A model generated the notes under the pieces. The model saw only the letters and a program-made list of their open reading frames with translations, searched no databases and was not told the origin of the DNA. From Desulfurobacterium pacificum (lineage in GTDB: Bacteria > Aquificota > Aquificia > Desulfurobacteriales > Desulfurobacteriaceae): a stretch of DNA of 34,763 nt. Both the position numbers and the translations under genes were made by a program. Positions 25,957 to 30,993 of this stretch are shown piece after piece (the stretch's first letter is position 1; the number at the start of each line of letters is the position of its first letter). Location: positions 66,906-101,668 of the forward strand of contig NZ_FXUB01000005.1 in NCBI RefSeq assembly GCF_900182835.1. The letters are read 5' to 3'.

Positions 25957-26979
25957 TCAAGCTTTTCCAAACGGGCAGATAGGAAATACACAAACAGAAC
26001 AGTTATGGCACAATCCACCGTGAGATTTCATTGCAACCTCTTCCCTGCTTATCACGTCCCCCACCAAAAGTCTTGGAAGCCATATATCAAAAGAGGTAGC
26101 CCTGTAAAAAAGTGCAGCAGCTGGAACAGCAACAACAGGTTTCCCGTTTATCCATCCCATAGTAAGCATATTCCCCGGCTGGATAGGATTTCCTCTTATA
26201 AAATTCTCCGCCCCAGCACTCCTTATAGCCCTGTAAGTTACGTCGTCCGGGTCAACAGACGTTCCACCAGTCAAAACAACAATATCGTACTTTTCGATAA
26301 ATTCCCTGATAGCGTTCCTTATCTTTTCTTCATCATCAGGAAGGATAACCTTCTCTTCAACGCTACAACGGAAAAACTCCAGTTTCGGCTTTAAACGGTC
26401 AAAAAACCTATCCTCAATCCTACCGTAAAAAACCTCGTTTCCCGTAATTATTATTCCCGCCTTTTTTTCTTCAAACGGTACCACCCTTACAATCCCATCA
26501 CCAGCTATTTTTACTGCTTCTTCCACTTGAGATTTAGGCGCCACCAAAGAAATAATCCTTACTGAAGCCACTTTAGTTCCCGGCTTCACCCACATGTCGC
26601 TATGAATGGTAGGACAAGAAGGCTCTCCAATAAGGTTGAACTTCACAAGTTTTTCCACATCAACCTTAACCACGCCGAAAACCGAAGAGTAGATGTTTAT
26701 CTTCCCTTCAGAAGGAGATTCATCTCTATACGTATTTTCTCCCATAATGGCATCGGCAAGCATAACGGCAGCTTCGTTTTCGTGAATTTCATCTTCAGAA
26801 AGCTCCAAAACGTAAATGTACTCCTTTCCCAATCTTCTAAGCTTTTCTACGTCTTCAGGTCTTATAATGTGTCCCTTTTTAAACGCTCTCCCCTTAAACC
26901 CTCTATCAAGATCAACTTCCGTAATGTCGTGAACCAAAACCATTCCTACAGCATCTTCCACCTTAACTTTCTTTTTCAT
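25957..26979 (-). CDS. MoeA-like molybdopterin-binding protein with C-terminal Cys cluster (340 aa)
   Basis: Residues about 1-165 resemble the MoeA/MoaB-associated N-terminal region without the SAVDGY motif. Residues 172-310 form a MogA/MoeA-type molybdopterin-binding domain, with TGNEV (179-183), [13 protein letters not shown] (236-248) and GNPIQPGNM (263-271). The protein ends with C324-x2-C327-x2-C330-x4-C335 in [16 protein letters not shown], a compact four-Cys motif fit to hold zinc or an iron-sulfur cluster. Its ATG overlaps the end of modC by 17 bases and has TAGGAGG upstream. A role in metal insertion or cofactor handling is likely; the exact step is not known to me. Confidence 0.8.
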
Positions 26980-28030
26980 AACACCTCCTAAAAACAGAAA
27001 TACAGGAAGGAGAAAGATAAAAGTCTGCTTCCCTTCCTTTCTCTATGATGTAGTTCGGAGAGAGAGAAAACGGAAGGTGCAAAACTACGTCACCGCCTAA
27101 ATCTAAAATTACCACGCTCTTATCCTTCTCTCTGAAAATATCCTTAACTACTGCAGAAATCTTTACAGAATCCTCTAAAGGATTGAGCGCGACGGCAAAC
27201 GGTAAAATAGAGACAAACACGTTTTCACCTTCTTTTAAATCTTCAGGAAAGTTTTTGGCTCTCAAAATTTGCTTTCTTCTATCTCCCAATCTGACTTCCA
27301 CGTAACCATCCATTACAAAAACAACTTTTCCAGATAAAAAGCTTTGATGTCCAAGCAGTTTTGCCACCTTTCCATCTATCGGGTTGAAAAACACTTCCAC
27401 TGGAACTCCTGTTTGCTTTACCTCTCCTTTCTCCATAATTACAACGTAATCGGTAAGCTCAAACACTTCATCAAAATCGTGAGTTACTAAAACCATAGGT
27501 ATGGAAAACTCACCTACAACTTCCCTAAGCCTTTTATACAACTCCAACTTCAGACTCTTATGGAGGGCAGAAAAAGGCTCATCCAAAAGCAAAACTTTAG
27601 GCTCAAAAGCTAAAGCCCTCGCAAGGGCGACTCTCTGTTTCTGTCCCCCCGAAATTTCCCTTGGAAAACGATTTCTTATATCCTGTATTTCAAGCATTTT
27701 TAAAACTTCTTCCACCCGTTTTTCATCTCTACAGCCGTAGGAAACGTTTTCCCAAACCGTCATATGCGGAAACAGAGCATAATCCTGGAACAGATAACCT
27801 ACCCTCCTTTTCTGTGGAGGCAGAAAAAACCTTTTACTTGAATCAAAAAACACTCTATCAACAACCTTTATCCTTCCTTCATCAGGTTTCAGCAAACCTG
27901 CTATCGCTTGAAGCGTAAGACTCTTTCCCGAACCAGAAGGAGCGAAAAGAGCAACAGACTTAGCTTCAGAGATGAACTGGACGTCCAAAGAAAACCCTTC
28001 AAGTTCCTTCTTTACAGAAACCTCTAACAC
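26963..28030 (-). CDS. modC: Molybdate ABC transporter ATPase (355 aa)
   Basis: ABC ATPase motifs are complete: Walker A APSGSGKS (30-37), Q-loop FQD (81-83), signature SGGQ (127-130), Walker B VLLLDEP (146-152) and H-loop H184. A C-terminal extension (about 225-355) has the TOBE/mop-like beta folds that bind molybdate and sense oxyanion in ModC. It powers ModB. The gene overlaps modD by 7 bases and the MoeA-like gene by 17 bases. Tungstate or sulfate transport are alternatives, but the neighbouring molybdenum genes and leader favour molybdate. Confidence 0.93.
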
Positions 28031-28869
28031 CTTTCCATCCTCACCTTAACGTCGGCAGGTTTTCCAAAGTAAGCACACGTTAAAACAATTATGTCAACAC
28101 CGGTAGCAGCGTAACTTTTTATGTTGGTTTCGTTTATACCACCAGCAGCGGCAACTTTAGCGTTCGGAAACTTTTGATTCCTAAAATCCACTACCTTAAC
28201 AACGTCCTCAACAGAAAACTTATCCAACTGAACCACTTCAACTCCAGCACTCAAAGCCGAGAAAGCCTCTTCAAAGGAGTTAACCTCAACAACTATCTTC
28301 TTTTCAGGAACGCGCTTCTTCAATTCCGGTATCATCTCCAACAACTTATCTAAACCACCAAGGAACTTCGTATGGTTCTCAAAAACGAGAACGCTTTCAG
28401 AAAGTCCCAGCCTATGGGGTAGAGCACCTCCAGCAAGTATCGCCTTTATGCACAATTTCTTGGCAAAGGGAAACGTCTTCCTCGTAGTAACAACTTCAAC
28501 GTTCTCGTTAACTTCCTTTGCAAGGCTAACCAACTTCTTCGTTCTCGTAGCAATCCCCGAAGCGTACTCAAGAACGTTCTGAGCAACCTTCCAGGTTAGG
28601 TGCAACCCTTCAGCCAAACCTTCAACTTCCAAAAACACTTCACCAGCACTCACTTCACTGCCACTTGGAAGGCATTTTCTAATCTCCAATCCCGCTTTTT
28701 TAAACAACCTACAACACTCTTCCGTCCCGCACACAACGATATCGTGTCTGGCAGAAAACTCCATTCTTCCCCTTTCCTTTCCTATCCCAAGCAGATAGGT
28801 AGTCAGGTCAAAGTAAGGAACGTCTTCCCTCAAAAGGGCATCTATCTCTTCTTCAGAAAACACTACCAT
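28024..28869 (-). CDS. modD: ModD, nicotinate phosphoribosyltransferase-like protein (281 aa)
   Basis: The protein is related to NadC quinolinate phosphoribosyltransferase, with an N-terminal sandwich domain and an alpha/beta barrel. Visible motifs are [16 protein letters not shown] (about 149-164), [15 protein letters not shown] (about 172-186), VEVNSFEEA and [22 protein letters not shown] at the end. In ModD proteins these sit in molybdate operons, and their substrate is not firmly established. Here it lies between modB and modC with 7-base overlaps on both sides, which supports ModD rather than a housekeeping NadC. A NAD-related role remains possible. Confidence 0.88.
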
Positions 28870-29543
28870 CTCTCACCCCTGTTAGTTAATCGGTTTATCA
28901 GGTAAAGAATAGTTAAAGAAATCACTGCTGTAACTGCAGATAAAAGGTTGGCTTTTTCAAAATCCCCGCCCGACACCGCGCTGTAAATCTCTATCGGTAT
29001 CGTATTCGTTTGAAAAGGTATATTGCCTGCAAGCATAAGAGTAGCACCGAATTCACCCATCGCCCTTGCAAAAGAGAGGACAACTGCCGCGATTATTCCC
29101 CTTTTAGCAAGAGGCAAAATAACCCTAAAGAACGTCTTCAGCTCACCTTTACCCAAAGTGTAAGAAACGTATATAAGGTTTTTATCAACCGATTCTATTG
29201 CAGCTCTTGCTCCTTTAACGAAAATCGGGAAAGCAGCAACGGAAGAAGCGACAACAGCAGCATACCAGGTAAACACTATCCCAGTTTTGAAGAGCTTATA
29301 AATCAAAGAGCCGATAACGCCGTTTTTACCCAAAAGCAAAAGCAGAAGGTAACCGGTAACGGTAGGAGGAAAAACTAAAGGTAGAGTTATCAAAGCATCT
29401 AACAGGTTCTTAAATGGAAACTTCTTCAACGCTAAGAAGTAAGCAACGGGGAGTCCAAACAGCATAACTAAAAGCGCAGAAATGGTTGAAACCTTTAAAG
29501 AGAGTTTTATAGAAAAGAGGGCTTCTGGGTCAAGAGAAATCAT
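28863..29543 (-). CDS. modB: Molybdate ABC transporter permease (226 aa)
   Basis: About five hydrophobic spans and the inner-membrane permease EAA-type loop (about 165-185, ending [16 protein letters not shown]) identify a ModB/CysT-family permease. It starts four bases inside the modA stop and ends seven bases inside modD, so the transporter genes are translationally linked. It is the channel for molybdate delivered by ModA. Confidence 0.95.
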
Positions 29544-30280
29544 TTTAGACCCTCTGTTACTTTCTTAAAGCCGAACTTTTTGAAATCTTCCGCATCTGCA
29601 TTAAGAATAAAGTTTTCAAACTTCTCAGCGCCTGAAGCGTTCCTTGCCCCTCTAACAATACCTATCCAAAAAGTAATAGGTCTGTGAAGATTGTCAGGAA
29701 AGACCTTCAGTAGCTTTAACCTATCCTTAAACCTCACGTAGTCAGAGTAATAAATAATTCCAGCATCAGTATTCCCAGTCATAACCCATACACTTATCTG
29801 TCTCACAGTAGGCGCATAGACAAATCTACTTTTTAACTTTTCATAAATCCCTAAATTTTTAAGCGTTTCTATCGCATACTTACCGACAGGTGCCAACCTA
29901 TTGCCTATTGCAATTTTCTTAGCCTCCATAATTGAACCAATGTGCGAGTTTAACGGAACAACCAAAACTAAGTCTGTAGAAGCGAAAGGTTTAGCAGAAT
30001 CAGGAACAATAAATCCCTTCTTTAACAGGTAATCCATCCAGTATTTAGAAGCAGAAATATAAATATCAGCAGGCGCTCCCGCTTCTATCTGCGTAGCCAA
30101 CTTACCCGAAGAAGAAAAGTTACAAACTACCTTATCAGAATTATGAGAAGCGTTAAACTGCTTAACCTCGTAATTAATCAAATCTTTCGTTCCCATAGCA
30201 GCACTAAGTCTGATAACGTCGGCTAAAGAAGAAGGTAAAAAGAAAAATTGAAAAAACAAAAGAAACAGCAAAATCCTCAT
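29540..30280 (-). CDS. modA: Molybdate-binding periplasmic protein (246 aa)
   Basis: A very hydrophobic signal peptide (1-20) ends in SSLA before DV, a normal signal peptidase I site. The mature part has ModA features: a [12 protein letters not shown]-terminal strand, [25 protein letters not shown] (about 63-87) with oxyanion-binding serines, and [17 protein letters not shown] later. It captures molybdate (or tungstate) in the periplasm for ModB/ModC. It is the first gene of the operon, behind a leader with a Moco-type riboswitch; its ribosome site (GAGGAGG) can be sequestered by that leader. Confidence 0.95.
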
Positions 30281-30286
30281 TGCACA

Positions 30287-30354
30287 CCTCCTCTAAAATA
30301 CTTAAGGGGCCAGCCCCGGATTGGAACTGGCCCCTCAAAGTAAAATAGAAGAGG
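30287..30354 (-). promoter_or_regulatory. Expression platform of the Moco-type leader
   Basis: In the transcript, CCUCUUCUA (30346-30354) can pair with the ribosome-site region UAGAGGAGG (30287-30295) over nine pairs, one of them G-U, with the perfect GGGGCCAG/CUGGCCCC stem (30306-30334) inside. The 13-base loop of that stem contains a 12-base perfect complement of aptamer bases 30369-30380. The closed hairpin and the aptamer-loop pairing cannot coexist, giving an on/off switch on modA translation (and perhaps termination). Confidence 0.65.
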
Positions 30355-30360
30355 CTTTCA

Positions 30361-30463
30361 GGGTTCCTTTCCAATCCGGGAGGCATGCCCGTTTCCAGGC
30401 ATACCCTATCGGTCTGACCCCATAGAGCAATCGCCCCTTAGGAAGTCAGACTCGGAACCCCTC
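30361..30463 (-). ncRNA. Molybdenum cofactor (Moco) riboswitch aptamer, modA leader
   Basis: Reading the minus strand, the leader folds as follows. P1 pairs GGGUUCC (30454-30460) with GGAACCC (30361-30367). P2 pairs GUCUGAC with GUCAGAC (30445-30451 with 30412-30418). A further hairpin AUGCC...GGCAU at 30385-30402 is capped by a GAAA GNRA tetraloop. A small stem inside P2 may be P3. Flanking CCGAG and a tetraloop match what I recall of the Moco RNA motif, which regulates molybdate uptake and cofactor genes; the downstream modABDC-moeA operon fits. Assignment is from shape and context, not a covariance search. Presence of P3 would favour molybdenum over tungsten cofactor. Confidence 0.8.
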
Positions 30464-30471
30464 AGTCAGGC

Positions 30472-30993
30472 TTATTTTATCAAACCTTGACTCTTTATCA
30501 AAAGAAAAATCAAAACAGCAGAAGCAATAAGAATCAATAAAACAGAGGAAATTGACTTCTTATAACTACTAATAGCAGTAATTACCTCTTCTTTCATCGC
30601 ACCTTGAGGTGCTCTTTTAGTTATTTCCTTTGCAATCTCAGTAAAACCTGAAACGGAATCGTCAATAATTGCAAACTTATCACCTTCTCCAGTTATAAAT
30701 AAGAAATACTTCCTACCCTGGGAAACTGAAATCTCTCTTATTTCATTCCATTTAAAGAACTTTTTACCAGTAATTCCAACTATTTCCAAACCATCGTCAG
30801 AAACAACAATCTTTTTCCTAAGCAAAAAGAAAAAGTAAGCCAAAATCGGAAGAATTAAAACGACTAAAATAATGGATTTTCCAGAAAATCCCCCCGTCCT
30901 CTCAACCAACAAAAAGAAAAACCACATATAAGCAAACACAAGCAAAGCGTAACTAAAAAGCGTCAGCTTATCCGTCCTATAAACCTTCTTCAT
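30472..30993 (-). CDS. PH-domain-like membrane protein (173 aa)
   Basis: No named family is recognised with certainty. Two N-terminal spans (about 11-31 and 40-58) precede a small beta-rich domain (about 60-120) with VSDDGLEIVGITGKKFFKWNEIREI. This is the pattern of bacterial PH (bPH/YcxB-like) membrane proteins. A basic linker leads to a third span near the C-terminus (about 148-166). The ATG overlaps the aminotransferase stop (TAATG), so it is co-transcribed with that gene. Its last codons hold the promoter of the molybdenum operon. Role unknown. Confidence 0.65.
   Translation of the reverse strand: MKKVYRTDKLTLFSYALLVFAYMWFFFLLVERTGGFSGKSIILVVLILPILAYFFFLLRKKIVVSDDGLEIVGITGKKFFKWNEIREISVSQGRKYFLFITGEGDKFAIIDDSVSGFTEIAKEITKRAPQGAMKEEVITAISSYKKSISSVLLILIASAVLIFLLIKSQGLIK
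30474..30501 (-). promoter_or_regulatory. Promoter of the mod-moe operon
   Basis: On the minus strand TTGATA (30496-30501), a 16-base spacer and TAAAAT (30474-30479) lie within the last codons of the upstream PH-like gene. Transcription would begin near 30466, just before the aptamer, so the riboswitch is at the 5' end of the operon. Confidence 0.6.

Follow-up and report, generated by a model that had tools for sequence, protein, structure and literature searches.

Expression platforms of Moco riboswitches have been little studied. According to the portion of the text of Regulski et al. (2008, PMC2408646) that is considered here, Moco RNAs, described in broad outline, have platforms of the terminator type or of the ribosome-site type, with terminators following some members of the family, and in E. 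coli moaA the ribosome site is masked within P1. The moaA leader is also the only Moco RNA treated in a 2012 landscape study, as a kinetic translational switch (PMC3280964); termination has been reported at the same leader with TaRTLEt (PMC12121620), and a 2025 survey describes it as characterised structurally, not functionally (PMC12121620). For the bacterial family Desulfurobacteriaceae, a Moco riboswitch has already been listed in Thermovibrio ammonificans (Lechner et al. 2014, PMC4227106), where, in the part of the article considered, the aptamer match alone is reported and the expression platform is left unanalysed. Outside this riboswitch class, a related system is the L5-L13 kissing loop of cobalamin riboswitches, in which the loop of an expression-platform hairpin likewise complements part of the aptamer (PMC10907184).

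The window analysed here, a stretch of 34,763 nucleotides from the genome of the thermophile Desulfurobacterium pacificum, contains on the minus strand, at 30348-30469, a Moco riboswitch aptamer (P1-P5) that was identified at full length by the covariance-model scan (RF01055, model positions 1-135 of 135, 76.7 bits versus a gathering score of 36, E = 4.6e-17), in full agreement with the original prediction of a Moco-type riboswitch from the sequence alone. Both the P4 element GGAAAC, with its GAAA tetraloop, and the tetraloop receptor in P2 (CCUAAG...UAUGG) align to the RF01055 consensus, so the assignment of this segment to the Moco riboswitches by sequence is well supported, and Moco (or Tuco) is the presumable ligand. 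The aptamer is flanked by a gene for a small membrane protein (stop at 30472) and by modA (start at 30280), that is, it lies directly 5' of the molybdate-transport genes. The gene for the molybdate-binding protein ModA (29540-30280, minus strand; PF13531, E = 1.4e-44) is followed by modB (28863-29543), a ModD-like gene of the QRPTase family (28024-28869), modC (26963-28030) and a gene for a MoCF-domain protein (25957-26979), all with Pfam matches, which together occupy 25957-29543 of the minus strand. In its aptamer and its position before molybdate-transport genes, the leader is the same as the Moco riboswitch of Regulski et al., within the text considered, and it shares both family and aptamer with the T. 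ammonificans RNA; unlike in E. coli moaA, its ribosome site is not masked within P1. A search of the genome revealed no second Moco RNA. Directly 5' of the aptamer, at 30474-30501 of the minus strand, there is a promoter-like site (TTGATA-16-TAAAAT with a preceding TG) that falls within the last part of the gene before it; chance alone would give sites of this kind at least as often in this region.

Downstream of the aptamer, at 30301-30339 of the minus strand, lies a terminator-like hairpin that reads, in the 5' to 3' direction, UUUGAGGGGCCAG-UUCCAAUCCGGGG-CUGGCCCCUUAAG (30339-30301), and the pairing of its loop with the aptamer core finds no description in the considered text of Regulski et al. 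The inner arms of the hairpin, GGGGCCAG (30334-30327) and CTGGCCCC (30313-30306), form 8 bp and enclose the 13-nt loop TTCCAATCCGGGG (30326-30314), in which the bases TTCCAATCCGGG match the reverse complement of the aptamer segment CCCGGATTGGAA (30380-30369, minus strand) in 12 of 12 positions, this segment being the core strand CCCGGAUUGGAA that comprises P5 and the following junction. The 12-base complementarity that had been predicted between the loop and this segment is therefore real, and so is the predicted hairpin, except that its stem is longer than the 8 bp then proposed, extending to approximately 12-13 bp once the flanks UUUGA and UUAAG are included, and that its 13-base loop may not be fully open, because UUCC and GGGG within it can pair as well, which brings the total to 17 predicted pairs with a 5-nt apical loop.

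The Desulfurobacteriaceae provide a natural series for comparison: 16 Moco leaders were found in 15 of the 22 genomes searched, in six genera. In each of the 16, a hairpin is located 9-28 nt 3' of the aptamer and carries a loop of 12-14 nt that matches its own aptamer, and the set contains eight distinct combinations of aptamer and loop. Given that MAFFT misplaced a one-base aptamer gap in three sequences, the pairing was scored by duplex energies and permutations rather than by alignment columns. The mean energy of cognate loop:aptamer duplexes was -21.9 kcal/mol, compared to -17.0 kcal/mol for non-cognate ones (permutation p = 0.007, with eight distinct combinations), and changes on both sides were detected at three pairs (G-C/A-U with G-U, A-U/G-C, and U-A/C-G); covariation of the 12-base pairing in relatives, chosen beforehand as a test of the prediction, was thus found in these leaders. 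Two aptamer types coexist in each of two genera: in one (g3), the loop is altered to match each type, and in the other (g4), the types differ at a single pair, A-U or G-U. Where the aptamer contains one additional U, this base is bulged, or else the loop has gained a base. The terminator stem covaries strongly across the family (p = 0.0002), and so does P2 of the aptamer in its own right; nevertheless, an exchange of partners between the terminator arms and P2, conceivable in the window where CUGGCCCC fits GGGGUCAG, was rejected because no cognate preference is seen in the family (permutation p = 0.49). The loop:aptamer pairing is very probably the on/off switch of the riboswitch.

Several other features of the family leaders deserve mention. 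The gene that follows the Moco RNA is modA in 14 of the 16 cases; in L010 and L012, both of g3, the riboswitch and modA are separated by a different gene, the start of which resembles a signal peptide, which suggests another protein under Moco control. One genome harbors two near-identical Moco leaders (L002 and L016), each 5' of a modA gene, whereas the genus g7 lacks the Moco RNA in all four of its genomes, in contrast to its presence in the six other genera. Besides RF01055, no Rfam family was detected in the family leaders up to E = 1.

The two folds were compared by enforcing either P1 or the loop duplex in all 16 leaders at 37 C and 70 C, in calculations that leave aside ligand energy, pseudoknots and polymerase effects. 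At the point when the loop has just been transcribed, the loop:aptamer duplex is favoured in 16 of 16 leaders, by 6-13 kcal/mol at 37 C and by 4-9 kcal/mol at 70 C. Once the stem is complete, the aptamer together with the hairpin is favoured by approximately 1-5 kcal/mol in 13 of the 16 leaders at 37 C, a number that rises to 15 at 70 C. The leader in the window is an exception, in that the duplex is still favoured with the stem complete (-4.7 kcal/mol) and leads until the ribosome-site region is transcribed, so that in this case the cofactor would have to tip the balance. A kinetic switch under cofactor control needs a balance of the kind seen in these models, which tips one way and then the other as the leader is transcribed. 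An antiterminator alternative is accordingly present in the leader, in the form of a helix that uses aptamer bases, covaries and is energetically favoured during elongation.

Taken together, these observations lead us to propose, with a probability of about 0.68, that the mod operon is controlled by a cofactor-repressed Moco riboswitch in which an intrinsic terminator serves as the expression platform and its loop supplies the antiterminator strand. What the data show is the parts, with their conservation and covariation, and how the two folds compare in energy; the ligand, termination at the hairpin, the timing of events and repression by the ligand are what we infer. When the cofactor is lacking, the loop would pair with the free aptamer core (30369-30380) on leaving the polymerase, and the resulting 12-bp helix would take apart P5 and P1 and impede closure of the terminator stem, so that the mod genes would be transcribed. 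When the cofactor is bound, the core would be locked in the folded aptamer, the loop would stay free, the G/C-rich stem would close immediately, and transcription would end. The loop helix and the stem have no bases in common and, therefore, their mutual exclusion would rest on geometry and kinetics.

Termination appears to be the likelier output of this switch than control of the ribosome site, given that the hairpin resembles the intrinsic terminators native to this genome and that two relatives (L007 and L004) carry clear U-tracts after it. The comparison with native terminators covered 275 kb of the genome and hairpins with G4-6/C4-6 stems, of which there are 17 on the two strands, nearly all intergenic; most of those placed after genes are no farther than 27 nt from the gene end, and their U tails are equally modest. 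The Moco hairpin is like these local terminators in all but loop size (13 nt compared to 3-9 nt), and it has more pairs than any other terminator-like site that a scan of the region lists. The counterpoint is that the U-rich tail of the window leader, UAUUUUAG (30293-30300, minus strand), is weak, and that masking of the ribosome site fits the window too.

Such masking is the basis of an alternative that we consider unlikely, namely, a translational switch in which the cofactor would favour the hairpin along with a helix between the possible anti-ribosome-site strand CCUCUUCUA (30346-30354, minus strand) and the modA ribosome-site region UAGAGGAGG (30287-30295, minus strand), whereas without the cofactor the loop:aptamer pairing would free the site. 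The nine-pair match that had been predicted between these two strands (30354-30346/30295-30287) is indeed there, with one G-U, and extends to ten pairs in the minimum-energy fold, where it stacks below the hairpin; a match of this quality arises in only 0.6% of shuffled linkers, and the fold that includes this helix becomes more stable than the duplex when the ribosome site has been transcribed. This strand, however, is not conserved and belongs at best to the genus of the window: matches as good are obtained with 14% of the shuffles in the sister species (L005) and with 8-17% in other genera, none was found in the genera g2, g3 and g5 or in L007, and the linkers of most other genera, at 9-12 nt, leave no room for it. 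A conserved anti-ribosome-site strand was, on these grounds, rejected across genera, and control of the ribosome site, to which the original prediction had assigned the output, does not hold up as a conserved mechanism. Moreover, the ribosome-site helix and the loop:aptamer helix do not share a single base, so these two pairings are not exclusive by base competition; of the two mutually exclusive states predicted, what stands is that the folds compete energetically. Within the terminator model, the hairpin in the genus of the window may at most mask the ribosome site as an additional, second layer.

A different arrangement is seen in nine leaders of the genera g4 and g6 (L001-L004, L006, L008, L009, L015 and L016), in which a second hairpin is located between the terminator hairpin and modA. 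Its stem varies by genus (GGAGACCCC/GGGGTCTCC, GGAGCCC/GGGCTCC or GCCCGGG/CCCGGGC) and its loop, GCACCUCCCC, is constant and complementary to the ribosome site GGAGGUG, so this element is likely to be a pseudoknot that masks the ribosome site. In the genomes of these two genera, the pattern was found only beside the Moco RNA; a search of the other genera did not reveal it, and up to E = 1 it matches nothing in Rfam.

It is also conceivable, albeit with a very low probability, that the two hairpins dock while both remain folded, the P5 loop and the apical loop pairing through GGAUU and AAUCC, with the contact itself serving as the signal, as in cobalamin riboswitches. Pairing of UUCC with GGGG can indeed close the apical part and leave AAUCC opposite the P5 loop. 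The cobalamin L5-L13 contact, however, is short and ligand-promoted and joins two folded hairpins (PMC10907184), whereas the 12 pairs here span the core, which they would unfold, and the complement covers P5 as well as the AA that comes after it. Furthermore, U-G wobbles, and not strong stem pairs, persist at the flanks of the loop, which is what their conservation for the aptamer would predict, and the complement in other phyla is directed at UUGGAAAGG, which goes beyond the P5 loop alone.

The evidence from other phyla comes from a GTDB pattern scan supplemented with further Moco leaders, which together yielded at least 75 distinct terminators of Moco RNAs, spread over many phyla. Among the matches listed, loop complementarity to the aptamer core reaches a score of at least 16 in 27 of 75 Moco terminators as opposed to 13 of 127 controls, and a score of at least 20 in 12 as opposed to one, and the terminator arms show no enrichment of core complementarity in the same comparison (75 versus 127). 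Again among the matches listed, the fit of the loops is better to their own aptamer core than to the cores of other loci (z = 5.3, a value that ignores kinship and includes several loci per genome), with z below 1 for the arms and the linker and z = 2.9 for the 30 nt after the hairpin. Individual Moco terminators with loop complements of 13-16 nt to their own aptamer core are found in Thermosyntropha, in a member of the Syntrophomonadaceae and in Acidobacteria (L111, L033 and L077, respectively). The notion that the loop complement is functionless and has been retained through kinship of the family members and the intrinsic conservation of the aptamer core is hardly credible in view of the compensatory changes within the family, including the two aptamer types in each of g3 and g4, and of the independent, cognate-specific signal in other phyla.

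The idea that the loop complement is special to Moco RNAs was rejected, because it is shared, within the same genomes, by TPP leaders and some SAM-I leaders: in 7 of 12 TPP and 3 of 15 SAM-I leaders, the partner of the aptamer 3' segment is a stretch with the terminator loop at its centre. A separate comparison, on 50-nt aptamer ends, proved too noisy to rank the riboswitch classes. The complement of the TPP and SAM-I terminators, however, usually includes stem bases, and that of SAM-I targets the P1 strand, whereas that of the Moco leader described here is confined to the loop and directed at the conserved core. Given this likeness, the design is a general one, present here in clean form. A broader proposition, that Moco riboswitches as a class employ a core-directed antisense loop that would pair with the ligand pocket without sharing a base with the terminator stem, so that topology, in the form of a loop-strand pseudoknot spanning roughly one helical turn, would govern the readout in place of ordinary strand competition, seems to us quite doubtful.

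No description of a loop-borne aptamer complement was found in the literature searched, which excluded most subscription papers, so the leader is apparently a clean, so far undescribed case of a known design. As a candidate it is compact and conserved, its sequence is enough to read off both folds and the exact bases that trade partners between them, and it comes from a group of bacteria with few described riboswitches. If the proposed mechanism is correct, antitermination through the terminator loop would extend to the Moco riboswitch class.
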